A stretch of DNA of 64,000 bases from an uncultured Lachnospiraceae bacterium (GTDB lineage Bacteria > Bacillota > Clostridia > Lachnospirales > Lachnospiraceae). The position numbers and the translations under genes are program-made. Shown here piece after piece: positions 18,941 to 52,631 of this stretch. The stretch spans positions 1 through 64,000 of the forward strand of contig CADAKQ010000013.1 of NCBI GenBank assembly GCA_902788555.1. Reading direction: 5' to 3'. The notes under the pieces are model-generated. The model did not search any database, had not been told where the DNA came from, and worked only from the letters and a program-made list of their open reading frames with translations. Within the stretch, counting starts at the first letter, position 1. Every line of letters starts with the position of its first letter.

Positions 18941-19633
18941 ATGCTTAAAGAAAATCTTAAAAATGTTCAGGACAATATTGCAGAGGCTTGTATGAAGGTT
19001 AAAAGAAATCCGGAGGAAGTTACACTTGTAGCAGTCAGTAAAACAAAACCTTTATCGGACATTGAAGAGCTTATGACATACGGTGTGACAGAGTACGGAG
19101 AAAACAAAGTTCAGGAGCTTTGTGATAAATTTGAAAATGTATCAAAGCCTGTACATTGGCATCTTATAGGACATCTTCAAACCAATAAGGTTAAGTATAT
19201 TGTCGATAAGGCATGTCTTATACACTCCGTAGATTCCGTTCATCTTGCAAGAGAGATAGAAAAACAGGCAGAAAAAAAGAATGTAGTGGCAAATATTTTA
19301 ATTCAGGTCAACATAGCTCACGAGGAAACCAAGTTTGGAATTGACGAGAAAAACATATATGATATTCTTGATGAAATCAAGTCTTTTAAGCATATTAAGG
19401 TTAAAGGGTTAATGACAATAGCGCCTTTTGTTGAAAATCCCGAAGAAAACAGGGATTATTTTAGAAAAATGCACCAATTATTACTTGACATAAAATCAAA
19501 AAACATTGATAATATTGATATGAGTATTCTCTCCATGGGGATGACTAATGATTATATGGTAGCGATAGAAGAGGGTGCGACCATGGTACGTGTAGGAACG
19601 GGAATCTTCGGAGAGAGAAATTATAATATATAA
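18941..19633 (+). CDS. yggS: PLP homeostasis protein YggS/YlmE
   Basis: A single-domain alanine-racemase-fold protein that binds PLP and buffers its level, 230 aa. The PLP lysine is in V-A-V-S-K-T-K (about 31-37). H-W-H-L-I-G-H-L-Q-T-N-K and the C-terminal S-M-G-M-T-N-D-Y segment are diagnostic. AAGGTGGTG precedes the ATG. As in many Gram-positives it is directly upstream of sepF. Confidence 0.95.
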   Translation: MLKENLKNVQDNIAEACMKVKRNPEEVTLVAVSKTKPLSDIEELMTYGVTEYGENKVQELCDKFENVSKPVHWHLIGHLQTNKVKYIVDKACLIHSVDSVHLAREIEKQAEKKNVVANILIQVNIAHEETKFGIDEKNIYDILDEIKSFKHIKVKGLMTIAPFVENPEENRDYFRKMHQLLLDIKSKNIDNIDMSILSMGMTNDYMVAIEEGATMVRVGTGIFGERNYNI

Positions 19634-19672
19634 TAATGATATTAAAACATTATATGAGGAGATTATGTAATT

Positions 19673-20311
19673 ATGGCTAAAGATTCAAATAAAAGAAGTT
19701 TTTTGGATTTCTTTAAAATGAAGGATTTAGATGATGAAGATGAATTCGAAGATGATTTATTCGATGATGAAGATGAAGACGATGAGGATTTTGAAGTGTC
19801 AAAGCCGCAAAGAAATTCTTATGTAAAAAACAGACCTGTTGAAAAAACGCAGGCTTATTCCAGAAGCTCAGGATATACAGCTGCTTCATCAACAGCATCA
19901 AGAGTGTCACAGGGACAGCAAAGCACATATCAATCATCAAGACCTCAGGCAAGACCACAGAATAATAATCTTGTTGACTTCAATACCAACAAGCAGCAAA
20001 GATCAAATAATTATAAAGGTGGAAGTGAAGTGTACGTAATTAAACCACAAGAGATAAGTGAGTCACAAACAGTTGCAGATTTTCTTAATGCAGGAAAAAC
20101 AATAGTAATAAATATGGAAGGGCTTGAACTTGCCCCTGCACAGAGAATTATAGATTTTATAGGTGGTGCCTGTTATGCTATAGGCGGTTCTTTACAGGCT
20201 ATCTCAGCAAATATTTTTATAGCGGCTCCAAGCTCCATCGAAGTTTCCGGTGATTTAAGAGAAGAAATTTTAAATGAGACAACCGTTTCACCACAGCTTG
20301 GACAATACTAA
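19673..20311 (+). CDS. sepF: Cell division protein SepF
   Basis: Tethers FtsZ filaments to the membrane and aligns them at the septum. It is 212 aa with the usual three parts: a short N-terminal membrane-targeting helix (F-L-D-F-F-K-M), a variable linker, and the C-terminal SepF domain (about 122-205; V-Y-V-I-K-P through R-I-I-D-F-I-G-G-A-C-Y-A-I-G-G). The linker is striking for an Asp/Glu block at about 19-40 and a Q/S/R-rich part. GAGGAGA precedes the start by 10 bases. Confidence 0.95.
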   Translation: MAKDSNKRSFLDFFKMKDLDDEDEFEDDLFDDEDEDDEDFEVSKPQRNSYVKNRPVEKTQAYSRSSGYTAASSTASRVSQGQQSTYQSSRPQARPQNNNLVDFNTNKQQRSNNYKGGSEVYVIKPQEISESQTVADFLNAGKTIVINMEGLELAPAQRIIDFIGGACYAIGGSLQAISANIFIAAPSSIEVSGDLREEILNETTVSPQLGQY

Positions 20312-20367
20312 TATATTATATAATTTGAAGGTATTAATCTATATTATTACGGGGGATGATTGTAAAG

Positions 20368-21612
20368 ATGCTTACACCGGTAGATATTCAACAGAAAAAA
20401 TTCAGAACAGGCTTAGGATATGAGAAAAAGGATGTCAATGCTTTTTTTGATGTTGTTTCTGATTCTTATGAAAAGCTATATCGTTCAAATGCAGAGTTAA
20501 AGGAAAAGGTATTAACCTTAACAGACGGATTACAAAATTATAAATCCAAGGAAGCAGAGCTTGAAAAATCCATTATGATTGCAGAAAAAGATTCTGAGGA
20601 TACAAAATCAAAGGCTCAAAAGGAAGCTAAAAATATAGAACTTGAGGCTAAAAATAAAGCAAAAAATATTCTTGCTGATGCCAAAAAGGAGCTTGCTGAA
20701 ATAACAGAAAAAATTAATGAACTTGAAACTCAATATGCTGCTTATAAATCAAACTTTGTTTATTTTATGAAAAAGCAGTTTGAGCTTTTAGAAGAAGAGG
20801 ATTTTGATCCTAAATCATATATAGACGAAAGAGCTCTTAAAACACTTGGTGTTTCTGTTGGAAGCAGTAGCGGTGGCTCTTCTGATTTTGGTTCATTTAC
20901 CGGAGATCCGCAGATGAGAGATGAGTCTACATTGGGTGGTTTTAATGGCGGTGGCGGTTCTATGTCTATGAATCCTGAGGATAAAGTTAGTACAAGTGCT
21001 GTTTATACATCAAACTTAAGTGCCGGAGAAAATTTTGTAGATCCTTTTAACCCTGATGCAAACAAACAAAACGGAAGATATAATCCTTATGACGGTCGTA
21101 CTGTTACTGAAAAGAAGAAAGGTGAACCGGCGTTTACAGTAAATACTGATGGAATGGGAACGGGAAAATATTCTTCACGTTCTTCCTCAAAGAGCTCACA
21201 AACAAAGAAGAGTACTTCCCAGTCATCTGCAGGAACAAAAAAGACTGAGGAGAAAAAGCAGGAAAAAAAGCCTGAGCCTGCACCAAAGAGCGATGATAAA
21301 AAGGAAGCAGATGCTAAAATTAAGGATATTGTTAATTCCAAGCTAAGCGAGGATAAAGCAAAGGAATCGGCACAAGAAAAAAAAGAACCTAAAAAGCCTG
21401 TAGTAGATAATATTTTTACTTTTGAAAAGGATATTAAAAAGGAGTCACCTTCCGAATCAAAGGAAGAAAGCTCCGTTTCGGAAAATGAATCTGAAATTCC
21501 TACTGTCAATTTTGGTGAGGATGATGTAGAGGTTGAAGTAGAAACCGTTAAGGAAAGTAACCTTCTTGGTGATGGCGAAGATGACGATTCAGGCGATTTC
21601 GAATTTGTTTAA
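20368..21612 (+). CDS. divIVA: DivIVA-domain cell division/polarity protein
   Basis: A curvature-sensing coiled-coil protein that marks division sites and poles. The N-terminal DivIVA motif M-L-T-P-V-D-I-Q-Q-K-K-F with G-Y-E-K-K-D-V-N-A-F-F is clear, then a coiled coil to about 150. The remaining 260 residues are low complexity: a Gly/Ser-rich stretch, a Lys/Glu/Pro-rich stretch and an acidic end. An in-frame ATG at 20356 abuts GGGGG (20351-20355), so the ATG at 20368, which begins the conserved motif, is chosen (414 aa). At over twice the B. subtilis length it is a tailed DivIVA. It follows sepF. Confidence 0.9.
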   Translation: MLTPVDIQQKKFRTGLGYEKKDVNAFFDVVSDSYEKLYRSNAELKEKVLTLTDGLQNYKSKEAELEKSIMIAEKDSEDTKSKAQKEAKNIELEAKNKAKNILADAKKELAEITEKINELETQYAAYKSNFVYFMKKQFELLEEEDFDPKSYIDERALKTLGVSVGSSSGGSSDFGSFTGDPQMRDESTLGGFNGGGGSMSMNPEDKVSTSAVYTSNLSAGENFVDPFNPDANKQNGRYNPYDGRTVTEKKKGEPAFTVNTDGMGTGKYSSRSSSKSSQTKKSTSQSSAGTKKTEEKKQEKKPEPAPKSDDKKEADAKIKDIVNSKLSEDKAKESAQEKKEPKKPVVDNIFTFEKDIKKESPSESKEESSVSENESEIPTVNFGEDDVEVEVETVKESNLLGDGEDDDSGDFEFV

Positions 21613-21635
21613 TATATAAAATAGGAGAATGTAGT

Positions 21636-22745
21636 ATGTTAATAGAGGATATAACAGTTCATGTAGATAATAAACCTGTATATGACATCACATTCAATGA
21701 TTCTTATGATGGATTGGCTGATATTCTTAACAGACTTGGCTTTTCCGGTAAAAAAATATGTATAGTATCTGAAACTAATGTAGCATCCTTATATTTGGAT
21801 GCTATATTAATTTCATTAAACAATGAAGGAATTTTTAATAAAGTTACTACATTTATTTTTAATGCAGGAGAAGAAAATAAGAATCTTGATGTTGTAAGAG
21901 ATTTATATGAACGATTGATAACAGAAAAATTTGACAGAAATGACCTTTTAATTGCCTTAGGAGGCGGTGTTACGGGAGATTTGACCGGATTTGCGGCTGC
22001 AACATACCTTAGAGGTATCGACTTTGTTCAGATTCCTACAAGCCTATTATCACAGGTAGATTCAAGTATAGGCGGTAAGACAGGAGTGGATTTTTCCTCC
22101 TACAAAAATATGGTTGGAGCATTTCATATGCCACGCCTTGTATATATGAATCAAAATTCTTTAAAATCTCTTGATAAAAGACAGTTTATATCGGGTATGG
22201 GAGAGGTTTTAAAGCACGGTCTTATACTCGATGCAGGTTATTATACATGGATAAAAAATAACTTTAGTAAAATCATTACGCTGGATTATGATACTCTTTG
22301 CGAGCTTGTGCATAGAAGCTGTCTGATTAAGCGTATGGTTGTGGAAGAGGATCCTACCGAAAAAGGGAAAAGAGCATTACTAAATTTTGGTCACACACTC
22401 GGACATGCACTTGAAAAGTATATGAATTTTGAGCTTTTGCATGGCGAATGTGTACTTATAGGCTCTATACTTGCATCTTTAATTTCATATAATAAGGGAA
22501 ATATCGATAAAAATACCCTTACTGATATAATTACAACTATTAAAATGTTTGAAATTCCTGCTTTACCAAAGGATATTGATATTGATAAAATAATCGATTA
22601 TACAAGAAATGATAAGAAGGTTGTAGGCGATAAGATAAAATTTATACTTCTTAAGTCTATAGGTAATGCTTATATTGATATGGATGTTACAAAAGAGGAC
22701 ATGAGACAGGCATTTACGGATTATCTTGATCAATATAACATGTAA
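21636..22745 (+). CDS. aroB: 3-dehydroquinate synthase
   Basis: Second step of the shikimate pathway, turning DAHP into 3-dehydroquinate with NAD and a divalent metal. It is 369 aa. Motifs include G-G-G-V-T-G-D (NAD site), P-T-S-L-L-S-Q-V-D-S-S-I-G-G-K-T, and the metal ligands in G-E-V-L-K-H-G, L-N-F-G-H-T-L-G-H-A-L-E and L-H-G-E-C-V. AGGAG precedes the start. It stands alone among division and envelope genes; no other shikimate gene is in view. Confidence 0.96.
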   Translation: MLIEDITVHVDNKPVYDITFNDSYDGLADILNRLGFSGKKICIVSETNVASLYLDAILISLNNEGIFNKVTTFIFNAGEENKNLDVVRDLYERLITEKFDRNDLLIALGGGVTGDLTGFAAATYLRGIDFVQIPTSLLSQVDSSIGGKTGVDFSSYKNMVGAFHMPRLVYMNQNSLKSLDKRQFISGMGEVLKHGLILDAGYYTWIKNNFSKIITLDYDTLCELVHRSCLIKRMVVEEDPTEKGKRALLNFGHTLGHALEKYMNFELLHGECVLIGSILASLISYNKGNIDKNTLTDIITTIKMFEIPALPKDIDIDKIIDYTRNDKKVVGDKIKFILLKSIGNAYIDMDVTKEDMRQAFTDYLDQYNM

Positions 22746-22813
22746 AACTATTATCAATTTATTATTAAGGTAATATAAAAATTTATAAAATCAACGCAGA
22801 AAGCAATAAAATA

Positions 22814-23323
22814 ATGAAAGAAAAAAAATTAAAAATAATGATACTTCCAATTATAATTATAGCTTTACTTACATCCATCGACCAATTTACTAAATTTATC
22901 ATTAAAAGTAAATTCAGTCTGTATGAATCAAAGGAAGTAATAAAAAATATATTTGCAATAACTTATATTCAAAATAAAGGTGCTGCATGGGGAGTGATGC
23001 AGGGAAGAAGAATTTTCTTTTTAATTCTGACTTTCTTTGTGCTAATTGGCTGTTTTTATATTCTATATAATATAGTTGATAACCGTAAATATATTATGTC
23101 AACTATCTGCATAACAGCATTAATATCAGGTGCGCTTGGCAATATGATTGACAGATTTAAGTATGGTTATGTTGTCGATTTCTTTGATTTTAAATTAATT
23201 GATTTTCCTGTATTCAATGTCGCAGATATTTATGTAACTTTAAGTATGTTCGCAATTCTTTTTCTTATGATTTTTATTTATAAGGAAGAGGATTTTGATG
23301 AAATTTTAGGTAAGAAACGCTGA
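22814..23323 (+). CDS. lspA: Lipoprotein signal peptidase (signal peptidase II)
   Basis: Cleaves signal peptides from prolipoproteins after diacylglyceryl transfer. It is 169 aa with four membrane helices. The catalytic aspartates are D113 in G-N-M-I-D-R and D138 in F-N-V-A-D. N-K-G-A-A-W-G is also conserved. The ribosome site is weak. It is directly upstream of rluD, the common Firmicutes pairing. The DUF3048 lipoprotein at 37618-38709 is one local substrate candidate. Confidence 0.95.
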   Translation: MKEKKLKIMILPIIIIALLTSIDQFTKFIIKSKFSLYESKEVIKNIFAITYIQNKGAAWGVMQGRRIFFLILTFFVLIGCFYILYNIVDNRKYIMSTICITALISGALGNMIDRFKYGYVVDFFDFKLIDFPVFNVADIYVTLSMFAILFLMIFIYKEEDFDEILGKKR

Positions 23324-23324
23324 T

Positions 23325-24260
23325 ATGGAAGATTTAAGAATAATAGCTGATGAGAATTATAATGAAGTATTAGGCATCAGAATTGATAAATTTCTTTCTG
23401 AAGAGCTTAACGAGCTTTCAAGGGCATATATTCAAAAATTAATTGAAGATGACTTTATATCGGTCAATTCTATGCCGGTTAAAGCAAATTATAAGATAAA
23501 ATCCGGTGATATAATCGATATAGATATTCCTGAGCCGGAAATAATCGAAATTGTTCCAATGGATATTCCCATTAATATTATATATGAGGATAAAGATATA
23601 ATTGTAGTGGATAAACCAAAGGGTATGGTTGTTCATCCTGCACCGGGACACTATGATGATACACTTGTAAACGCACTTATGTATCATTGTAAAGATTTAT
23701 CGACCATAAATGGCGTTATGAGACCGGGAATTGTCCACAGAATCGATATGGATACTTCAGGTCTTTTGGTTGTTTGTAAAAATGACATTTCCCATAGGAT
23801 TATGGCTGATAAATTCAAAATTCACGATATAAACAGAATTTATACAGCGATTTGCCATAATCATTTTAACGAAGCTGACGGTACAATCGATAAACCTATT
23901 GCAAGACATAAAACAGACCGTAAAAAGATGGCGATTGATCCAAAGGGCAGAAGAGCCGTTACTCATTATCATGTAATCAAAAATCTTAAGGATAATATGT
24001 CCTTAATCGAATGTAAGCTTGAAACCGGACGTACACATCAGATAAGGGTTCATATGGCGAGTATCAATCATCCGTTGCTTGGCGATGAAGTATACGGAAC
24101 CAAATCAAAAAAATTTAATTTAAACGGTCAGGTTTTACATGCAGGAGTTCTTGGATTTAATCATCCGATAACAAATGAATATATGGAATTCAAATCAGAG
24201 CTTCCGGAATACTTTAATAAAATTTTAAATGTGCTTGATGATGCATTATCAAACGCATAA
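23325..24260 (+). CDS. rluD: Large-subunit rRNA pseudouridine synthase, RluD family
   Basis: Isomerises uridines in 23S rRNA. It is 311 aa with an N-terminal S4 RNA-binding domain (about 16-75) and an RluA-type catalytic domain. The catalytic Asp is D141 in H-R-I-D-M-D-T-S-G. R-T-H-Q-I-R-V-H is also conserved. The start is one base past the lspA stop, so the pair is coupled. Its last codons form part of the terminator stem. Assignment to RluD rather than RluC or RluA rests on the S4 domain and context. Confidence 0.9.
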   Translation: MEDLRIIADENYNEVLGIRIDKFLSEELNELSRAYIQKLIEDDFISVNSMPVKANYKIKSGDIIDIDIPEPEIIEIVPMDIPINIIYEDKDIIVVDKPKGMVVHPAPGHYDDTLVNALMYHCKDLSTINGVMRPGIVHRIDMDTSGLLVVCKNDISHRIMADKFKIHDINRIYTAICHNHFNEADGTIDKPIARHKTDRKKMAIDPKGRRAVTHYHVIKNLKDNMSLIECKLETGRTHQIRVHMASINHPLLGDEVYGTKSKKFNLNGQVLHAGVLGFNHPITNEYMEFKSELPEYFNKILNVLDDALSNA

Positions 24261-24294
24261 CACAAAATCATAAAAATGTGTTATGCGTATTTTT
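24253..24294 (+). terminator. Strong terminator overlapping the rluD stop
   Basis: Perfect 12-bp arms (24253-24264 ACGCATAACACA with 24277-24288) enclose a 12-nt A-rich loop and are followed by ATTTTT. The left arm includes the rluD stop codon. It ends the long plus-strand run. Confidence 0.92.
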
Positions 24295-24336
24295 AATCAA
24301 AGACATAAAAAAAGTTAGATTTTATGCGGATTTTCC

Positions 24337-24365
24337 TTGACAAGAGGAGTGCAATATGATATATT
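24337..24365 (+). promoter_or_regulatory. Consensus promoter of the Xer recombinase gene
   Basis: TTGACA (24337-24342), exactly 17 bp, then TATATT (24360-24365). Transcription would begin near 24372, giving a leader of about 125 nt that contains the dif-like site and the TGCATGA repeats. It shows that the recombinase is expressed independently of rluD. Confidence 0.85.
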
Positions 24366-24379
24366 AAAAGTAATCCAAT

Positions 24380-24407
24380 TATTCGCAAAACTCAGGTTTT
24401 ACGAAAA
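24380..24407. other. Candidate dif-like recombination site
   Basis: A 28-bp site with two 11-bp arms (24380-24390 TATTCGCAAAA and 24397-24407 TTTTACGAAAA) around a 6-bp centre CTCAGG. The arms are inverted repeats of each other from 24382 to 24405 with one mismatch. This is the layout of a Xer core site. In streptococci and lactococci the single recombinase XerS has its dif site right next to its gene, as here. A hairpin in the transcript leader is the alternative reading. Confidence 0.45.
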
Positions 24408-24496
24408 GATATGCATGATAATATGCGAAGTAGTGAGCAAACTTGTTTACGAGCTGTTGCATGAAAATATGCATGAAAACCAAGGAGGTACTCTTT

Positions 24497-25546
24497 ATGG
24501 CTGAATTAACATATCAACAACAAATCGACATGCAAAATATAGATTTAATCAGAAATATATCCAAGGAGCTACCGGATTATATGCGTCATTTCTTTCGCTC
24601 AATCCAACAAAGCAAATCCTCACGTACCAGACTTGGTTACGCACGTGACATAAAAAACTTTTTTGAATATATTGTTGAGGCTTATACGGACGCACCTTTA
24701 AATTCGCCCAAGGATGTTACTTTGGATATTCTTTCGTCCATAAATGCGATTTTCATTGAGGATTATGAGGATTATCTTCAAAAGTACTCTAAAAACGGCC
24801 GGATTTACACTAACGATAAAGCTTCAATTAAGCGTAAATTATGCTCTCTTAGTGTTATGTATACCTATTTTTATAAAAATGACATGGTTTCCGGCAATCC
24901 TATCAATAAAATCGAGCGTCCGCGTCTTAAAGATAAACAAATCACCCGTATGGACTATGATGAGGTTGCAAACTTCCTTGATACTGTCGAATACGGCGTT
25001 AATTTGACCGATAAGCAATTACAATATCATGGTAAGGCTAAAAATCGCGATTTGGCGCTTTTAACGCTTATGTTAAGTACAGGTATCCGTATATCCGAAT
25101 GTGTAGGTTTAAACATAAATGATGTTGATTTTAAGAATATGTGCATAAAGGTTACCCGAAAAGGTGGCAAGGAAGCTCTTGTTTATTTTAGTGATGAAGC
25201 TGCCGGGCCTCTTAGCGTGTATATTGATGAAAGAAAGAAAATCGATGCCGTTTCAGGTCACGAAAATGCTCTTTTCCTGTCTTCTCAAAGAAAACGAATC
25301 AGTGTCCGTACCGTTGAAAATATGGTTAAAAAATATGCTCAGTCTTCGGTTCCTTTAAAGCATATTACACCGCATAAGCTTAGAAGCACCTACGGAACCA
25401 ATCTATACCGCGAAACCGACGACATCTACCTGGTTGCCGATGTTTTAGGCCATAGCGACGTAAATACAACCAGAAAACACTATGCCGATATGGATGATGA
25501 CCGTAAACGCCGTGCAAGGAATAAGGTTACTCTCAGGGAAAGTTGA
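24497..25546 (+). CDS. Xer-type tyrosine recombinase, XerS-like
   Basis: A site-specific recombinase of 349 aa. The SAM-like N-terminal core-binding domain spans about 30-130. The catalytic residues are R198 (G-I-R-I-S-E), a lysine in T-R-K-G-G-K, H293-x-x-R296, H319 (L-G-H-S-D) and nucleophile Y329 (R-K-H-Y). Nothing marks it as a phage integrase: no excisionase gene, no tRNA and no cargo genes. The length and the N-terminal P-D-Y-M-R-H-F-F pattern recall the single-recombinase XerS type that resolves chromosome dimers. The frame opens at 24443, but CAAGGAGG at 24481-24488 fixes ATG 24497. Confidence 0.85.
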   Translation: MAELTYQQQIDMQNIDLIRNISKELPDYMRHFFRSIQQSKSSRTRLGYARDIKNFFEYIVEAYTDAPLNSPKDVTLDILSSINAIFIEDYEDYLQKYSKNGRIYTNDKASIKRKLCSLSVMYTYFYKNDMVSGNPINKIERPRLKDKQITRMDYDEVANFLDTVEYGVNLTDKQLQYHGKAKNRDLALLTLMLSTGIRISECVGLNINDVDFKNMCIKVTRKGGKEALVYFSDEAAGPLSVYIDERKKIDAVSGHENALFLSSQRKRISVRTVENMVKKYAQSSVPLKHITPHKLRSTYGTNLYRETDDIYLVADVLGHSDVNTTRKHYADMDDDRKRRARNKVTLRES

Positions 25547-25610
25547 ATTATCTTTATAAATATTACCATAATAATATTATGTAAACAAATTTATAATTAC
25601 TAAAATTATA

Positions 25611-25645
25611 AGGGAATATTCTTAAATAAATTAAGATTATTCCCT
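25611..25645. terminator. Bidirectional hairpin between converging genes
   Basis: AGGGAATA (25611-25618) pairs with TATTCCCT (25638-25645), and TCTTAA (25620-25625) with TTAAGA (25631-25636), with one T-T mismatch between. It lies between the recombinase stop and the HEPN stop and can serve both. No long T-tract is adjacent. Confidence 0.6.
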
Positions 25646-25649
25646 ATAT

Positions 25650-26069
25650 TTAATCTATATTAATTAAATATTTTTTTATTGTATCATAAAACAATTCAGC
25701 GTTAGAAACCTGTTCAGTAACGTCTTGCTTGGAAATAACAGTAAAGTCTCCGTAATCGCTATCACTTCTAACTGTCAAGGCGTCTCCTATTATTTCTGAA
25801 AAAGATTTGTCAAAAACTCCGGTTTTTATATATTTTTCTCTGAAATACGAAACATTTCCTGAATGTCTTTTAAATTCTACACCATCTAATGCTAGTATGC
25901 TTCGAATTGAATGGAAAATACAATAATATGCTCTATTTGTTGCATCTTCATATAATTCATGTTCCAATAATGTTTTTGCAGCCTGTAAACAATTTTTTGC
26001 TTTTTCTAAACGGTATTTTGATAAATCTTTTTTAGTATTTATATTATTAACATCATCAGCGCTGTTCAT
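25650..26069 (-). CDS. HEPN-domain protein of a nucleotidyltransferase pair
   Basis: A 139-aa helical HEPN protein encoded with a minimal nucleotidyltransferase, as in HI0074/HI0073-type and HepT/MntA-type pairs. The core A-Y-Y-C-I-F-H-S-I-R helix is at 47-56 and the conserved Arg is R101. The following residues are S-D-S-D-Y106, so the catalytic R-x4-6-H of RNase HEPN toxins is missing its histidine; a Tyr takes that place. It may thus be a non-nucleolytic HEPN. The frame opens at 26096, but GGGTGG fixes the start at 26069, overlapping the partner gene by 14 bp. Confidence 0.8.
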   Translation of the reverse strand: MNSADDVNNINTKKDLSKYRLEKAKNCLQAAKTLLEHELYEDATNRAYYCIFHSIRSILALDGVEFKRHSGNVSYFREKYIKTGVFDKSFSEIIGDALTVRSDSDYGDFTVISKQDVTEQVSNAELFYDTIKKYLINID

Positions 26070-26394
26070 ATAATACCACCCCGTCTTTCTGAACATTTTG
26101 GTAAAATGGCAAGATACTCATTTTGCTGTAAAATGTATCTTTATCATTCACAATTAGCGTTACAGTTACATTGTTTTCCAAACTTGCATCACTTGATACT
26201 GTTGAAAGACATTTTCTGTATTTAGGCAAATCAACTCTCGGACAATTTAACAAAAACATAATATCCACATCTGAATCATCTTCATAATCACCTCTTGCAT
26301 ATGAACCAAAAAGTATAATTTTGAAAATTATATCTCCTAAAGAATCAATGCCTTTTTTTACTACATCTTTTTTTAAAACTTCTATATCTGCCAT
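26056..26394 (-). CDS. Minimal nucleotidyltransferase (MNT) partner of HEPN
   Basis: A 112-aa pol-beta-type nucleotidyltransferase. G-S-Y-A-R-G and S-D-V-D-I (about 28-43) give the GS...DxD catalytic signature. In characterised HEPN/MNT modules the MNT protein is the antitoxin and adds AMP to its HEPN partner. AAGGTGGTGA precedes the ATG, and the gene has its own promoter. It is translated first and overlaps the HEPN gene. Whether this pair is a toxin-antitoxin or a housekeeping enzyme cannot be read from sequence. Confidence 0.82.
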   Translation of the reverse strand: MADIEVLKKDVVKKGIDSLGDIIFKIILFGSYARGDYEDDSDVDIMFLLNCPRVDLPKYRKCLSTVSSDASLENNVTVTLIVNDKDTFYSKMSILPFYQNVQKDGVVLYEQR

Positions 26395-26424
26395 TTTATC
26401 ACCACCTTTTGTTATATTATAATT

Positions 26425-26453
26425 AGTATAGCTTAAATATAAGGAAATATCAA
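26425..26453 (-). promoter_or_regulatory. Promoter of the MNT-HEPN operon
   Basis: On the minus strand TTGATA (26448-26453), 17 bp, TATACT (26425-26430). Both boxes match consensus at 5 of 6 or nearly so. The start is expected near 26418, about 24 nt before the MNT ATG. Confidence 0.75.
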
Positions 26454-26505
26454 TTATTAAGCTCCATTGATGCTTATTATTACAATTTCTATATTATATT
26501 CCTCA

Positions 26506-27075
26506 TCATAAATATTTAATTGTACATCTTGATTTTTCTATTTTATCCAAAATATTAATTAATATTTCTGAATCATTTGGCAATCTTTTTTTTAGTAGGT
26601 TCCAACCGACAATCTGTAATTCATTTGGAAAAATAACATCATATATCAAATCATTAACTGCATCCCAATTATCCCCACAAAACAAAGGAAAATCTAACTT
26701 TTTCTTAAATACTTTTATCAAATCAGTCTGAGTAAATATATTATTACAATCAATCGTTATTAATTTATTCTTTTTATATTTGTTTTTCAATAATTTTGTA
26801 ATAGAATCATATTTGTTTGTTTCAATAATTTTTTCGACATATGCATCGTTTATCTTTTGATATTGTGGCAAATAATTTTTTCTAATATAATCACTTAAAA
26901 CCCTATGTAAATGGATAATATCTTTTTTTGAATTATAATCAATACTAACTAATTCATTAAAAGTATCTTCATCAAATTCATTCTCAAAAATGTCTATATT
27001 ATCATATAATATTTTTTCAAAATCATTAATACTTATATACCCCTTTAAAAACAAACAAATTATTTCTATATGCAT
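26506..27075 (-). CDS. Barstar-like immunity protein with N-terminal extension
   Basis: A 189-aa protein. The last 95 residues match the barstar fold: an I-D-C-N beta strand, then D-F-P-L-F-C-G-D-N-W-D-A-V-N-D-L-I, which is the barnase-inhibitor signature. The first 85 residues form an unrecognised helical acidic domain seen with some immunity proteins. Barstars bind and block secreted RNases. No barnase-like nuclease is in the window, so it looks like an orphan immunity gene. The gene is very AT-rich and has AAGGAG before the ATG. It sits beside the HEPN/MNT pair but has its own promoter. Confidence 0.75.
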   Translation of the reverse strand: MHIEIICLFLKGYISINDFEKILYDNIDIFENEFDEDTFNELVSIDYNSKKDIIHLHRVLSDYIRKNYLPQYQKINDAYVEKIIETNKYDSITKLLKNKYKKNKLITIDCNNIFTQTDLIKVFKKKLDFPLFCGDNWDAVNDLIYDVIFPNELQIVGWNLLKKRLPNDSEILINILDKIEKSRCTIKYL

Positions 27076-27236: not shown

Positions 27237-27854
27237 ATGGGTAAAAAAACTATTATCACCATTGGAAGACAATTTGGAAGTAACGGACGTGAAATAGGCA
27301 GAAAGCTTGCTGAAAAGCTGGATTATGCATTTTATGACAAGGAATTACTCTATGAAACTGCCAAGAAAAGCGGTTTAAGCGAGAATTTGCTCAAAAGTCT
27401 TGACGAAAAGCCGTCAAAGAGCTTCCTCTACTCTCTCGTCATGGATCCATACAGCTACGGTTTTACAAGTACCGGATATCATGCAAATCTTAATCAACAG
27501 GCATTTCAGGCTACTTATGATACGATTAAAAGCATAGCTGAAGAAGGTCCTTGTGTATTCGTCGGTAGATGTGCGGATTATGCTTTAAGACATAACGAAA
27601 ATCTGGTTCGTATATTTATATTTGCTCCTCTTGAAAAGAGAATTGAAACAGTTTCAAAGCGTTTTGATTTATCGGAGGATAAGGCAAGAAGCCAGATAAT
27701 CAAGGAAGATAAAGGACGTGCATCCTATTACAATTATTATACCTCAAAGAAATGGGCCTCTCTTGACAGCTATGATATATTTGTAAACAGTAGCCTTATG
27801 GACATAGATAAAACTGTTGATTATATCATAGATATCATTAATAACATGAATTAA
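27237..27854 (+). CDS. Cytidylate kinase-like protein
   Basis: A 205-aa P-loop kinase of the cytidylate kinase-like family. G-R-Q-F-G-S-N-G-R-E-I-G (residues 10-21) is the nucleotide-binding loop of this branch. C-V-F-V-G-R-C-A-D-Y and an R-x-x-x-x-E-D-K-x-R lid follow. Members are common in Clostridia, often beside transporters or alone, and the natural substrate is not known. AAGGAGG precedes the ATG. It is one of two complete plus-strand genes in the right part of the window. Confidence 0.85.
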   Translation: MGKKTIITIGRQFGSNGREIGRKLAEKLDYAFYDKELLYETAKKSGLSENLLKSLDEKPSKSFLYSLVMDPYSYGFTSTGYHANLNQQAFQATYDTIKSIAEEGPCVFVGRCADYALRHNENLVRIFIFAPLEKRIETVSKRFDLSEDKARSQIIKEDKGRASYYNYYTSKKWASLDSYDIFVNSSLMDIDKTVDYIIDIINNMN

Positions 27855-28895: not shown

Positions 28896-30095
28896 TTACC
28901 TCGGCGCCATAAGCTTAGTAATCCCTGCTTTAAGCCCATCTATTGTAAGCGGATACATATCGTAAATCTCTGCTAAGGTTCGTTCTGATTCCATCCATGC
29001 AAGGTCGTTTAGCTTGCCGTGAAATCTCGGATTAAGCCATATGGCTTTCTTATATTTGTCGCGCAGAAGCTTGTTCCATTCATAACCGCTTCGTCCATCG
29101 TTAGGTCCGCGGTAATTGCCGTTTACATCAAATAATTCCTCGGGTGCCATCTGTGCATCACCTACGATTATAACCTTATAATCCTTGTCGGTATGTCTGA
29201 AAAGGTAATCCAGATCAACCCAATTTCCCATCTCACATTCCGCATCCTTATAGACTTTACTGTAGATACAGTTATGGAAATAATAGGTTTTTACGTCCTT
29301 GAAATGATTTGCCTTGTGAACTGCCTGAAATAAGTCATTACAAAGCTCAGAAAAAGGCATCATGGTTCCGCCACAGTCAAATAAAAGCAAAAGCTTGACG
29401 GAGTTCTTACGTGGTTTGTCAAATTCAAGCTTAAGATAGCCGCCGTTATTGCAGGTAGAATCTATGGTTTTATCAAGATCAAGCTCAGTTTTAGCCACAT
29501 CAAGCTTGGCTGAAAACTGTCTTAATCTTCTGAAAGCCATCTGAAACTGCCTTATATCAAGGGTTTTATCATGTCTGAAATCCTGATATTTACGCTCTCC
29601 CATTACCTGAAAGGCTGACTGCTGACCGGGATGTCCGCCGATACGAAGTCCGCCGGGATTACGTCCGCTGTGACCAAAGGCTGAACCTCCGCTGGTTCCA
29701 ATCCAGTAATTACCACCGTTATGCTCCTGATTTTGCTCGGTAACACGCTCGCGGTACATTCTCTTTGTTTCTGCCATATCACGCTTTTGTATATAGCTGT
29801 AGATATCGGCATTAAGCTTGGATGTGTCCATCTCACCCTTATCAAGGAATTTCATTATGATTTCCGGAGGCATCTCCATATCTATGTGAACATTTTTAAA
29901 ATATTCCATAAATGCCATATCGAACTTATCATAGTCGGATTCAGTTTTAACAAGTATCATTCTGCCGAGATTATAAAGTCCCTCAAGGGATGAATATGCA
30001 AGACCTTTGTCAAGTGCGTCCATGAAGGTTATCCATTCAGTTAAAGATACATTGAGCCCCTTATCCCGCAGAACATAGAGAAAATCAGTAAACAA
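28896..30095 (-). CDS. VWA (CoxE-like) protein paired with a MoxR ATPase
   Basis: A 399-aa protein with an N-terminal CoxE-like region and a C-terminal von Willebrand A domain. The MIDAS start is D240-C-G-G-T rather than D-x-S-x-S, a known style in this branch. The start codon is TTG at 30095, with GAGGAG at 30106-30111 in the right place. With the MoxR-type ATPase encoded upstream it should form a chaperone-like pair that remodels or inserts a metal into a client protein. The client is unknown and no obvious target enzyme is adjacent. Confidence 0.85.
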   Translation of the reverse strand: MFTDFLYVLRDKGLNVSLTEWITFMDALDKGLAYSSLEGLYNLGRMILVKTESDYDKFDMAFMEYFKNVHIDMEMPPEIIMKFLDKGEMDTSKLNADIYSYIQKRDMAETKRMYRERVTEQNQEHNGGNYWIGTSGGSAFGHSGRNPGGLRIGGHPGQQSAFQVMGERKYQDFRHDKTLDIRQFQMAFRRLRQFSAKLDVAKTELDLDKTIDSTCNNGGYLKLEFDKPRKNSVKLLLLFDCGGTMMPFSELCNDLFQAVHKANHFKDVKTYYFHNCIYSKVYKDAECEMGNWVDLDYLFRHTDKDYKVIIVGDAQMAPEELFDVNGNYRGPNDGRSGYEWNKLLRDKYKKAIWLNPRFHGKLNDLAWMESERTLAEIYDMYPLTIDGLKAGITKLMAPR

Positions 30096-30184
30096 TTAAT
30101 AAATTCTCCTCTAAAATCTTTTTTATAAAAAATATTAAACAAAAATCTTTTCAACTAAAATATTTTATCTTAAAATCTTTTATA

Positions 30185-31003
30185 CTAATATATTTTCTTT
30201 TTATTAACTATCTCAACATCCTCATCTTTCTTAATCAAAACACCAAGATAAGGAAGCTTGGTTCTTATTATTTCAGGGTCGATACCGCCTATGGTAAGTG
30301 CATTTAGCCAGTCTATAAGCTCAGATGTACTTGGTTTTTTCCTGACCTCCTTTATGCTTCTTATCCAATAAAAGGTATCCATAGCCTGCTTTAAAAGGTT
30401 TTCGTCTATATTGTCGAAATGAACTCTTACGATTTCATCCATTTCCTCCTTCTCAGGAAATGCAATATAATGGAATATACATCTTCTAAGAAATGCGTCA
30501 GGAAGCTCCTTTTCGGCATTTGAGGTTATGATTACAATAGGTCTTGTTTTAGCCTTTATGGTTTCCCTTGTTTCATGTATATAAAATTCCATCTTATCAA
30601 GCTCCCAAAGTAAGTCGTTAGGGAACTCAAGGTCTGCCTTATCAATTTCGTCTATAAGAAGGATTACCTGTTCCTCGGACTTAAATGCCTCACCGAGCTT
30701 ACCGAGCTTGATATATCTTTTTATATCATCCACGCCTTCCTCACCGAACTGGCTGTCATAAAGTCTTTGGATGGTATCATATACATAAAGTCCATCCTGA
30801 GCCTTTGTGGTTGATTTGATATTCCATATATAAAGAGGCATATTAAATGCCTGGCTTATAGCCTCTGCAAGCATGGTTTTTCCGGTTCCCGGTTCACCCT
30901 TTATAAGTAATGGCTTCTCTAAAGCTCTTGCAACATCAACCGCAGCCATAAGCTCCGGAGATGCAACATATTCCTTAGAACCCGTAAATTTCATTTCGTT
31001 CAT
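30185..31003 (-). CDS. MoxR-family AAA+ ATPase
   Basis: A 272-aa AAA+ ATPase. Walker A is G36-E-P-G-T-G-K-T43, Walker B is L-L-I-D-E-I-D-K, sensor 1 is T-S-N-A, and an arginine finger lies in F-L-R-R-C. The C-terminal lid is present. MoxR proteins act with VWA partners to mature or assemble other proteins. AAAGGAA before ATG 31003 selects that start over the longer frame from 31063. The VWA gene follows 89 bp later. Confidence 0.9.
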   Translation of the reverse strand: MNEMKFTGSKEYVASPELMAAVDVARALEKPLLIKGEPGTGKTMLAEAISQAFNMPLYIWNIKSTTKAQDGLYVYDTIQRLYDSQFGEEGVDDIKRYIKLGKLGEAFKSEEQVILLIDEIDKADLEFPNDLLWELDKMEFYIHETRETIKAKTRPIVIITSNAEKELPDAFLRRCIFHYIAFPEKEEMDEIVRVHFDNIDENLLKQAMDTFYWIRSIKEVRKKPSTSELIDWLNALTIGGIDPEIIRTKLPYLGVLIKKDEDVEIVNKKKIY

Positions 31004-31079
31004 ACTATAGTATTCCTTTCTTTTTTTGCATCGTACTTGATTTACGCTGATAAATAATATCATATATTAATGTTATTTT

Positions 31080-52016: not shown

Positions 52017-52631
52017 ATGGAGATTTTATCTGCAAAGCAACAGGAAATATTAGAATATTTAAAGGAATGTATACTTAAAAAAGGCTATCCCCCTGCAGTA
52101 AGAGAGATATGCGATGCCGTACATCTAAAATCCACATCCTCTGTTCATGCTCATCTTGAAACACTCGAAACAAAGGGCTATATAAGACGAGACCCTACAA
52201 AGCCCAGAGCTATTGAAATACTTGATGATACATTTAATCTTGCAAGACGAGAGCTTGTAAATGTACCTATAGTAGGAACAATAACAGCCGGTGAGCCGAT
52301 TCTTGCTGTTGAAAATATCGAGGGATACTTTCCTGTTCCTCCTGAATATATAAAAACCAACAAAGAACTGTTTATGCTTAAGGTAAAAGGGGAAAGTATG
52401 ATAAATGCCGGTATATTTAACGGCGATTTGGTTATGGTGGAAAAAACCGAAACTGCCAGAAATATGGACATAGTTGTAGCCTTAATTGATGATTCCGCAA
52501 CAGTAAAGACATTTTATAAAGAAGATGGATATGTAAGGCTTCAACCGGAAAATGATACTATGGAGCCAATCATAGTCAGGGACAATCTCTCGATTTTAGG
52601 TAAGGTTGTCGGATTATTCAGAACATTTTAA
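52017..52631 (+). CDS. lexA: SOS repressor LexA
   Basis: Represses DNA-damage genes and cleaves itself when RecA is activated. It is 204 aa. The winged-helix DNA-binding domain (1-70) is followed by the cleavage site A91-G92 in T-I-T-A-G-E-P. The serine-lysine dyad is S127 (G-E-S-M) and K164 (T-V-K-T). CCAAGGAGG precedes the ATG. It is the main plus-strand exception in the right part of the window and has two LexA boxes in its promoter. Confidence 0.97.

Follow-up and report, generated by a model that had tools for sequence, protein, structure and literature searches.

Does the point at which the genes of this uncultured Lachnospiraceae contig change direction mark the replication terminus, and is the Xer-type recombinase gene that lies there, behind a 28-bp inverted site, part of a system that resolves chromosome dimers? 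The stretch of DNA analyzed here (the window) covers positions 1-64,000 of contig C13, which is 126,198 bp long. The source assembly amounts to 2.70 Mb in 54 contigs, is 88.7% complete and is not closed, and the distances to dnaA reported below come from relatives. Loci nearly identical to it are records of uncultured Lachnospiraceae, one of them from a roe deer omasum. Orthologues of the recombinase were surveyed first in 61 genomes, 24 of them from other families of the order, and family-wide pattern searches covered 397 Lachnospiraceae genomes from 144 genera. A further 20 genomes, 11 of them in a single contig, were chosen mostly for carrying the dif-like site, and 398 genomes formed a phylum sample for the palindrome described below.

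Gene direction, GC skew and the dif-like site

Counting ORFs of at least 100 aa, 21 run on the plus strand left of the site and 30 on the minus strand right of 28 kb. Two plus-strand ORFs that break this pattern (27237-27854 and 52017-52631) do not lie over a minus-strand ORF; elsewhere, to the left as to the right, ORFs on the opposite strand overlap longer ones and were treated as shadows. Apart from these two exceptions, the switch in gene direction noted in the preliminary description is therefore borne out. GC skew and gene direction both switch at 24000-26000, the terminus region. In 2-kb blocks the skew ranges from +0.12 to +0.21 up to 24 kb, is close to zero at 24-26 kb and is negative afterwards, and the cumulative maximum of the window falls at 25247, within xerS and 0.87 kb from the site. 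The third-position skew is +0.09 for the 21 genes that run rightwards on the left-hand side of the site; for the three rightward genes right of it, the values are -0.20 (xerS), -0.16 (a cytidylate-kinase-like gene) and 0.00. Negative or zero values in rightward genes beyond the site indicate that the skew switch is not just a coding-strand effect.

The division genes sepF and divIVA, together with lspA and an RluA-type pseudouridine synthase gene (18941-24260), run up to the terminus. Right after xerS, the stretch 25650-27075 encodes an MntA-like nucleotidyltransferase (26056-26394; PADLOC PDC-S09 match), which has a 148-aa ORF of unknown kind next to it, as well as a barstar-like protein (26506-27075). 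Further on, a weak VWA/CoxE-like protein lies beside an AAA ATPase (28896-31063), and the latter matches the MadB and IetA defence models, under the curated cut-offs where these are given.

The 28-bp dif-like site, TATTCGCAAAACTCAGGTTTTACGAAAA (24380-24407, plus strand), has arms TATTCGCAAAA and TTTTACGAAAA around CTCAGG if taken as 11-6-11. The recombinase gene starts 117 bp after its first base, which confirms the reported position of the site upstream of the gene. Judging the site by its dyad symmetry alone was dropped: 17 dyads of equal form and at least equal quality, the site included, occur in the 64 kb, so that the symmetry of 24380-24407 in itself proves nothing, and a repeat finder run on the window did not list it. 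The site is considered real because it is conserved in relatives. It is the sole match to TATTCGCAAAACTCAGGTTTTACGAAAA at up to three mismatches in the window, and at the same tolerance a symmetric consensus matches 24380-24407 only in the whole 2.70-Mb assembly, in agreement with the uniqueness that the preliminary description had predicted. The conservation next to the gene that it named as a further check was also found, as the site lies 51-215 bp 5' of the gene start, with 0-6 mismatches, in all 30 same-genus loci (the window's own counted). This adjacency is kept in the genus but not across all genera.

Across the family, a pattern search with the core TTCGNNAAACNNNNGTTTNNCGAA matched 84 of the 397 genomes (42 of 144 genera), and the reversed-pattern control matched 3 of 397. 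The exact core pattern has no match in the other 313 genomes, a part of which is accounted for by variants; distant relatives carry, for example, TATTCGTGAAACCATAGTTTTGCGAAAA and TATACGACAAACACATGTTTTTCAAATA, and even with variants considered the site was not found in every genome. The single copy per chromosome that characterizes a dif site is seen in the window's own assembly and in 82 of the 84 genomes with the pattern, the other two (G246 and G249) having two copies each. In both of these genomes the copies sit on different contigs, possibly reflecting a second replicon, contamination or an integrated element.

A promoter-like sequence, TTGACA-17-TATATT with an extended -10 (24337-24365, plus strand; 11 of 12 in a consensus scan), is located directly 5' of the dif-like site. 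Eight such sites were seen in the scanned stretch and 6.9 were expected by chance, so the match is no evidence of function. As the sequence ends 14 bp 5' of dif, transcription of xerS may cross dif. Several relatives have promoter-like letters on the downstream side of dif instead.

Single-contig genomes of relatives place the site opposite the origin, at the skew switch; ten of the 11 have it 0.455-0.537 of the circle away from dnaA. The dnaA-to-site fractions of the contig are 0.46 in G006, G441 and G175, 0.47 in G185, 0.48 in G265 and G408, 0.51 in G210 and G226, 0.52 in G172, 0.54 in G289, and 0.38 in the outlier G057. For the two-contig assemblies they are 0.49 (G424) and 0.34 (G139, where dnaA matched in two separate pieces). 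In 8 of 13 genomes the skew maximum is no more than 250 bp from the site, and in all 13 it is no more than 3.6 kb away; these are local maxima, as most of the stretches used extended over 20-40 kb with the site inside. G006, a closed genome of the same genus, gave 19 readable chromosome samples (a 20th was masked), which change sign only twice, at 1.90-2.05 Mb, with dnaA at 1.97 Mb, and at 0.59-0.66 Mb, with the site at 0.626 Mb.

Genomes in which the gene lies 3.6-58 kb from the site separate the two as landmarks, and in five of six the skew maximum falls within 135 bp of the site. The distances of gene and skew maximum from the site are about 58 kb and 120 bp in G289, 57 kb and 19 bp in G172, 12 kb and 135 bp in G210, 12.5 kb and 13 bp in G265, and 3.6 kb and 13 bp in G441; in G424 the gene is 16 kb off and the maximum 2.2 kb from the site. 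Thirteen long loci separate site and gene by over 1 kb; nine of them place the maximum no farther than 250 bp from the site, and in L086, L087, L092 and L110 it is 1.3-5.3 kb off. Where site and gene adjoin, the maximum is often inside or past xerS, up to 6.7 kb (L034, L044), and in G226 skew and site differ by 3.5 kb. Because the skew maximum stays at the site when the gene is kilobases away, the terminus is marked by the dif-like site rather than by the xerS gene. The claimed replication terminus is thus upheld by the skew turnover at the site in the window and by the position of the site opposite dnaA in closed relatives, and the skew extremum, another check proposed earlier, lies at or near the site in both.

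The XerS-like recombinase and its probable role

The gene next to the site encodes a XerS-like tyrosine recombinase of 349 aa (24497-25546, plus strand). Its start is an ATG behind AAGGAGG, and the mechanical ORF begins at a TTG at 24443. The NCBIfam XerS model, NF003462, ranked top of 13 models with 207.3 bits, under its curated cut-off of 267, and the XerA, XerC and XerD models gave 155-166 bits. Six residues (R198, K222, H293, R296, H319 and Y329), whose catalytic roles were assigned by comparison with XerH (PMC5241119) and E. coli XerD, are invariant in all 34 aligned orthologues, which were drawn from 110 loci examined for the site. The protein therefore possesses the complete R-K-H-R-H-Y active site of a XerS, at a length close to the approximately 356 aa typical of that family. 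An AlphaFold model of it (pLDDT 88.8, pTM 0.63) had XerA, an integron integrase, XerH (5jjv, 5jk0) and the Tn1549 integrase as top structural matches, with E. coli XerD at rank 17.

The first survey identified a clear orthologue (E≤1e-70) in 54 of its 61 genomes; for those from outside the family, the figure is 23 of 24. An orthologue is also present in all 20 genomes chosen mostly for the site. The seven genomes of the survey in which none was found at this threshold (G002, G007, G010, G016, G031, G034 and G051) are all multi-contig, and G031, G034 and G051 are at least 90% complete. In G034, which belongs to the same genus and is 99% complete, the best match has an E value of 2.5e-27 and the exact dif pattern is absent, owing to either an assembly gap or a real loss. 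Second, more distant relatives of the gene occur in G017 and G424.

With high confidence, we regard the locus as a Lachnospiraceae chromosome terminus with a XerS-type, single-recombinase chromosome-dimer-resolution module. Its site and gene are conserved, and the site is single-copy and lies at the terminus. By analogy with the recombinase family, the module would operate through binding, recombination and control by FtsK. Most likely the XerS-like protein occupies the two arms of the 28-bp dif (24380-24407); it would swap strands between the two dif copies of a dimeric chromosome at division, FtsK bringing the two copies together as XerS, XerH and XerCD suggest.

Two other roles for the gene and its site were weighed. 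The gene might be the integrase of a mobile element and the 28-bp site its attachment site, which would suit the gene kinds of variable regions found on the right-hand side (barstar-like, weakly MntA-like nucleotidyltransferase) and the second relatives in two genomes; this is very improbable given that nearly every genome across the order has one clear orthologue and that the site remains at the terminus where the gene is elsewhere. A site that was merely an operator or leader of xerS, with no part in replication, would agree with the promoter-like sequence directly 5' of it, itself a chance-level match. Such a role scarcely accounts for a site that is found at the skew switch though up to 58 kb from the gene, or for site-gene distances that vary from 44 to 453 bp even in adjacent cases, and we hold it to be highly unlikely. 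The terminus, dif and XerS-like reading of the preliminary description is thus strongly supported. For a major family of gut bacteria, the dif-like site offers a terminus landmark at the level of sequence, almost always in one copy, by which genomes and MAGs can be oriented and checked.

XerD and a palindrome near the terminus

One part of the preliminary description, a single Xer recombinase, did not hold: the assembly encodes five PF00589 proteins, one of which is a XerD above the NCBIfam cut-off (G000:C34:22829-23683, L183; 341 bits, cut-off 329.6). This XerD and a palindrome near the terminus are a more interesting lead than the terminus, dif and XerS reading itself. Among the 397 family genomes, at least 279 have a XerD-model match at E≤1e-60, at least 222 at E≤1e-80 and at least 165 above the curated cut-off; the search scored five candidates in most genomes, misses are no proof of absence, and the weaker class takes in other Xer paralogues.

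The XerD alignment comprised 54 sequences, namely L176-L189 (14, five of them under the cut-off) and L297-L336 (40 from 40 genomes, all taken from the top of the list of XerD-model matches); L199, a truncated XerD-like piece of G157 that also lacks the lysine discussed here, was left out. In all 54, the beta2-beta3 lysine is absent from the alignment column where E. coli XerD has its GKG lysine, which we take to be the catalytic K172. The GKGNKER motif has turned, typically, into C-x-D-x-x-KER. About 10 of the 54 have a lysine one place before the acidic residue, where others have R, H, S, T or Q, which means that lysine is not conserved at the shifted position either. The remaining five catalytic residues are kept in 48 of 54 sequences, and L185-L189 and G161 have lost more. 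Six other Xer paralogues (L190, L194-L198) retain GKGxKER or similar, and E. coli XerD (PDB 1a0p), the comparator from outside the family, retains the lysine as well. The Lachnospiraceae XerD accordingly lacks the catalytic lysine of a canonical, recombination-competent XerD. In XerH, according to the portion of PMC5241119 consulted, the catalytic lysine sits in the beta2-beta3 turn, and the Cre mutant K201A, altered at the equivalent lysine, is described in excerpts of PMC4381057 as catalytically inactive while still binding and synapsing its sites. Following the behaviour of Cre K201A, we infer that the Lachnospiraceae XerD is inactive; it seems to have lost recombination chemistry.

Just 3' of the xerS stop lies a degenerate terminus palindrome, ATTACCATAA-TAATA-TTATGTAAAC (ATTACCATAATAATATTATGTAAAC; 25562-25586, plus strand), consisting of one perfect XerD-like half-site, TTATGTAAAC, and a partner half-site with three mismatches. 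It is the sole match in the assembly, at up to three mismatches, to the palindrome GTTTACATAA-N5-TTATGTAAAC. With at most one mismatch, this palindrome occurs in one or two copies in 59 of the 397 family genomes (27 of 144 genera), as against 1 of 397 for the reversed control. Two of the 398 genomes in the phylum sample contained it, neither of them a member of the family; it is thus not simply the Bacillus signal, and the idea of a general phylum signal was dropped as unsupported. Spacing was examined in loci fetched via xerS alone (L049-L110, 722,612 bp), where a 5-bp spacer separates 17 of 17 pairs at up to one mismatch, 25 of 26 at up to two and 29 of 37 at up to three, and the reversed control gave none at any mismatch level. 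The palindrome centres fall outside ORFs of at least 100 aa in 46 of 50 cases. TTATGTAAAC is identical at 8 of 10 positions to the TTATGTCAAG end of a suggested Frankia dif, as quoted in the excerpted text of PMC3025954, and a half-site resembling a XerD arm near the terminus is what an SMC-unloading site would be expected to have.

Of 20 genomes with both the palindrome and the exact dif pattern, 15 have the two on one contig and three on different contigs, and for the remaining two the place of dif is not among the matches listed. Every palindrome copy in the 15 one-contig genomes (20 places) is within 34 kb of dif; some of the shared contigs are short, but G172 is closed at 4.5 Mb and the G111 contig measures 430 kb. 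Palindrome-centred stretches of 20 kb, 17 in number, contained a clear dif-like site in 5 and xerS in 7. Among the 12 genomes with two copies, six (G111, G297, G345, G137, G346, G409) have one copy on each side of dif or the skew maximum and three (G172, G203, G355) have both on one side, the other three (G268, G302, G307) not being placed. The closed same-genus genome G006 has no palindrome even at up to three mismatches. At that tolerance, matches were also found far from dif in G210, G289, G185 and G265, and 7 of 20 genomes yielded a total of 8 matches to the reversed control, for which reason only those at up to two mismatches were counted as meaningful in that 20-genome search.

Several identities of the palindrome were considered and rejected. 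It does not behave as a second canonical dif, because in closed genomes with the palindrome 1.4-120 kb separate it from dif; G293 is an exception, with the palindrome 0.5 kb from the skew maximum and beside a weak dif-like sequence. Nor do the copies appear to be the ends of an element integrated at dif, since their spacers differ in 11 of 12 two-copy genomes, the exception being G137, where the spacers are alike and in opposite orientation. An RNA element was set aside because an Rfam search of the window between 23.0 and 27.5 kb found nothing and compensatory change was nearly absent. Outside the family, L337 (G587:C33) carries a perfect palindrome 0.5 kb from an intact Xer gene near a skew switch; in this single case it is perhaps a symmetric dif of that lineage.

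How XerD and the palindrome may be related is a matter on which we can be no more than tentative. Our proposal, to which we give slightly less than an even chance, is that XerS resolves dimers at dif and that XerD binds the near-dif palindromes without recombination, plausibly unloading SMC; it extends the main XerS/dif reading and is not opposed to it. The XerS-like enzyme would have taken over chromosome-dimer resolution at its own dif, XerD would have lost the catalytic lysine, along with other active-site residues in some genomes, and would recognize paired XerD half-sites that form a palindrome close to dif, probably for SMC unloading at the terminus. XerD would then have been kept as a sequence-specific DNA-binding protein. 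The proposal draws on the lysine missing from 54 of 54 XerD and retained in six Xer paralogues and E. coli XerD, on the excess of the palindrome over its reversed control with the uniform 5-bp spacing (17 of 17), and on its location close to dif in 15 of 15 one-contig genomes and on both sides of dif or the skew switch in 6 of 12 two-copy genomes. Furthermore, XerD-model matches at 1e-60 are found in at least 56 of the 59 palindrome genomes and at least 223 of the 338 others (Fisher p 9e-7), and at 1e-80 in at least 52 of 59 and at least 170 of 338 (Fisher p 2e-8), p-values that are too small because the genomes are related. The Cre K201A precedent of binding without catalysis (PMC4381057) points in the same direction, as does the description of XerD, in the available parts of PMC12322038, PMC8242196 and PMC13342612, as a sequence-specific SMC unloader at the B. 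subtilis terminus. Against it, the palindrome at up to one mismatch is absent from 223 of the 279 genomes with a XerD match, from the closed G006 even at three, and from nearly all of the phylum sample (present in 2 of 398); three palindrome genomes (G203, G254, G315) have no XerD match at 1e-60, and only 5 of the 17 palindrome-centred stretches show a clear dif-like site and 7 xerS.

An intrinsic terminator or RNA hairpin in place of a XerD site would explain why the arms often extend into variable complementary stems, the first flanking pair being complementary in 48 of 71 cases and the eighth in 25 of 71. It would not explain why the arm sequence itself is kept across genera or why there are just one or two copies per genome, and the flanking ORFs are convergent in only 16 of 49 cases. 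Across 34 sites, 50 one-sided arm changes were counted against 2 two-sided ones, 1 compensatory, a comparison in which the selection of sites favours one-sided changes. Their prevalence speaks for recognition of double-stranded half-sites, though many copies lie within longer hairpins, and we consider a terminator or hairpin unlikely. If the division of labour between XerS and XerD is true, a whole bacterial family would have fixed a natural separation-of-function mutant in its XerD. Should the palindromes prove to be bound by XerD, comparative genomics could tell recombination and SMC unloading apart, in a way that is directly testable.

Comparison with known Xer systems

A XerS-type one-recombinase module is unreported for Lachnospiraceae in the literature searched, where we found no report of XerS in the family; subscription papers were thinly covered, and absence from print is not implied. 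Queries combining Lachnospiraceae with both a dif site and XerD matched, in the indexed text, only a paper on Lactobacillus amylovorus resistance genes. In streptococci and lactococci, XerS acts on difSL and dimers are resolved at division with FtsK, according to extracts of the review PMC5357621. The system described here resembles it in having one tyrosine recombinase some 350 aa long (356 aa there), a gene beside the site (30 of 30 same-genus loci) and a position at the terminus, as well as arms with outer TTC/GAA and inner AAAA/TTTT, the letters being set against the halves quoted in that review. The difSL site is given there as 31 bp with an 11-bp centre, in contrast to the conserved block of 28 bp with near-equal arms found here. 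In addition, the protein scores under the cut-off of the curated XerS model and shares the genome with a further Xer, a XerD without the catalytic lysine; gene and site are far apart in several genera, the gene being free to move. The streptococcal XerS/dif layout proposed in the preliminary description therefore stands as regards a gene beside a site at the terminus; the XerS cut-off is not reached, and the site is not the 31-bp difSL. The XerS principle nevertheless reaches well beyond streptococci.

XerH/difH of epsilonproteobacteria is similar in its single recombinase of 354-362 aa and a site near the gene, as given in passages of PMC5357621 and PMC5241119, and in the structural matches of 5jjv and 5jk0 to the XerS-like model; it differs by low sequence similarity (XerH 38.6 bits, XerA 79.4 bits). 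The XerC/XerD-dif system shares the 28-bp site, the skew switch and the single site per chromosome, and differs in the site sequence and in that the Lachnospiraceae XerD lacks the catalytic lysine. Karaboja (2021) reportedly described XerD-dependent SMC unloading at the terminus of B. subtilis. Common to that system and the present one are XerD-like half-sites near the terminus, with a XerD-model match in at least 279 of the 397 family genomes; here, unlike there, recombination would fall to another enzyme, and the half-sites form perfect 5-bp-spaced palindromes that are seldom found outside the family (2 of 398).

The closest parallel for two kinds of Xer in one cell is Lactobacillus helveticus, which has other Xer genes (XerCD) besides a XerS close to the skew switch and in which the XerS site was not found, as stated in the section of Kono et al. 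2011 (PMC3025954) available. The same section regards the coexistence of XerS and XerCD as a possible evolutionary intermediate and does not mention Lachnospiraceae. The present findings bear on this coexistence: here, in contrast to L. helveticus, the site is found, and XerD persists minus a catalytic residue.
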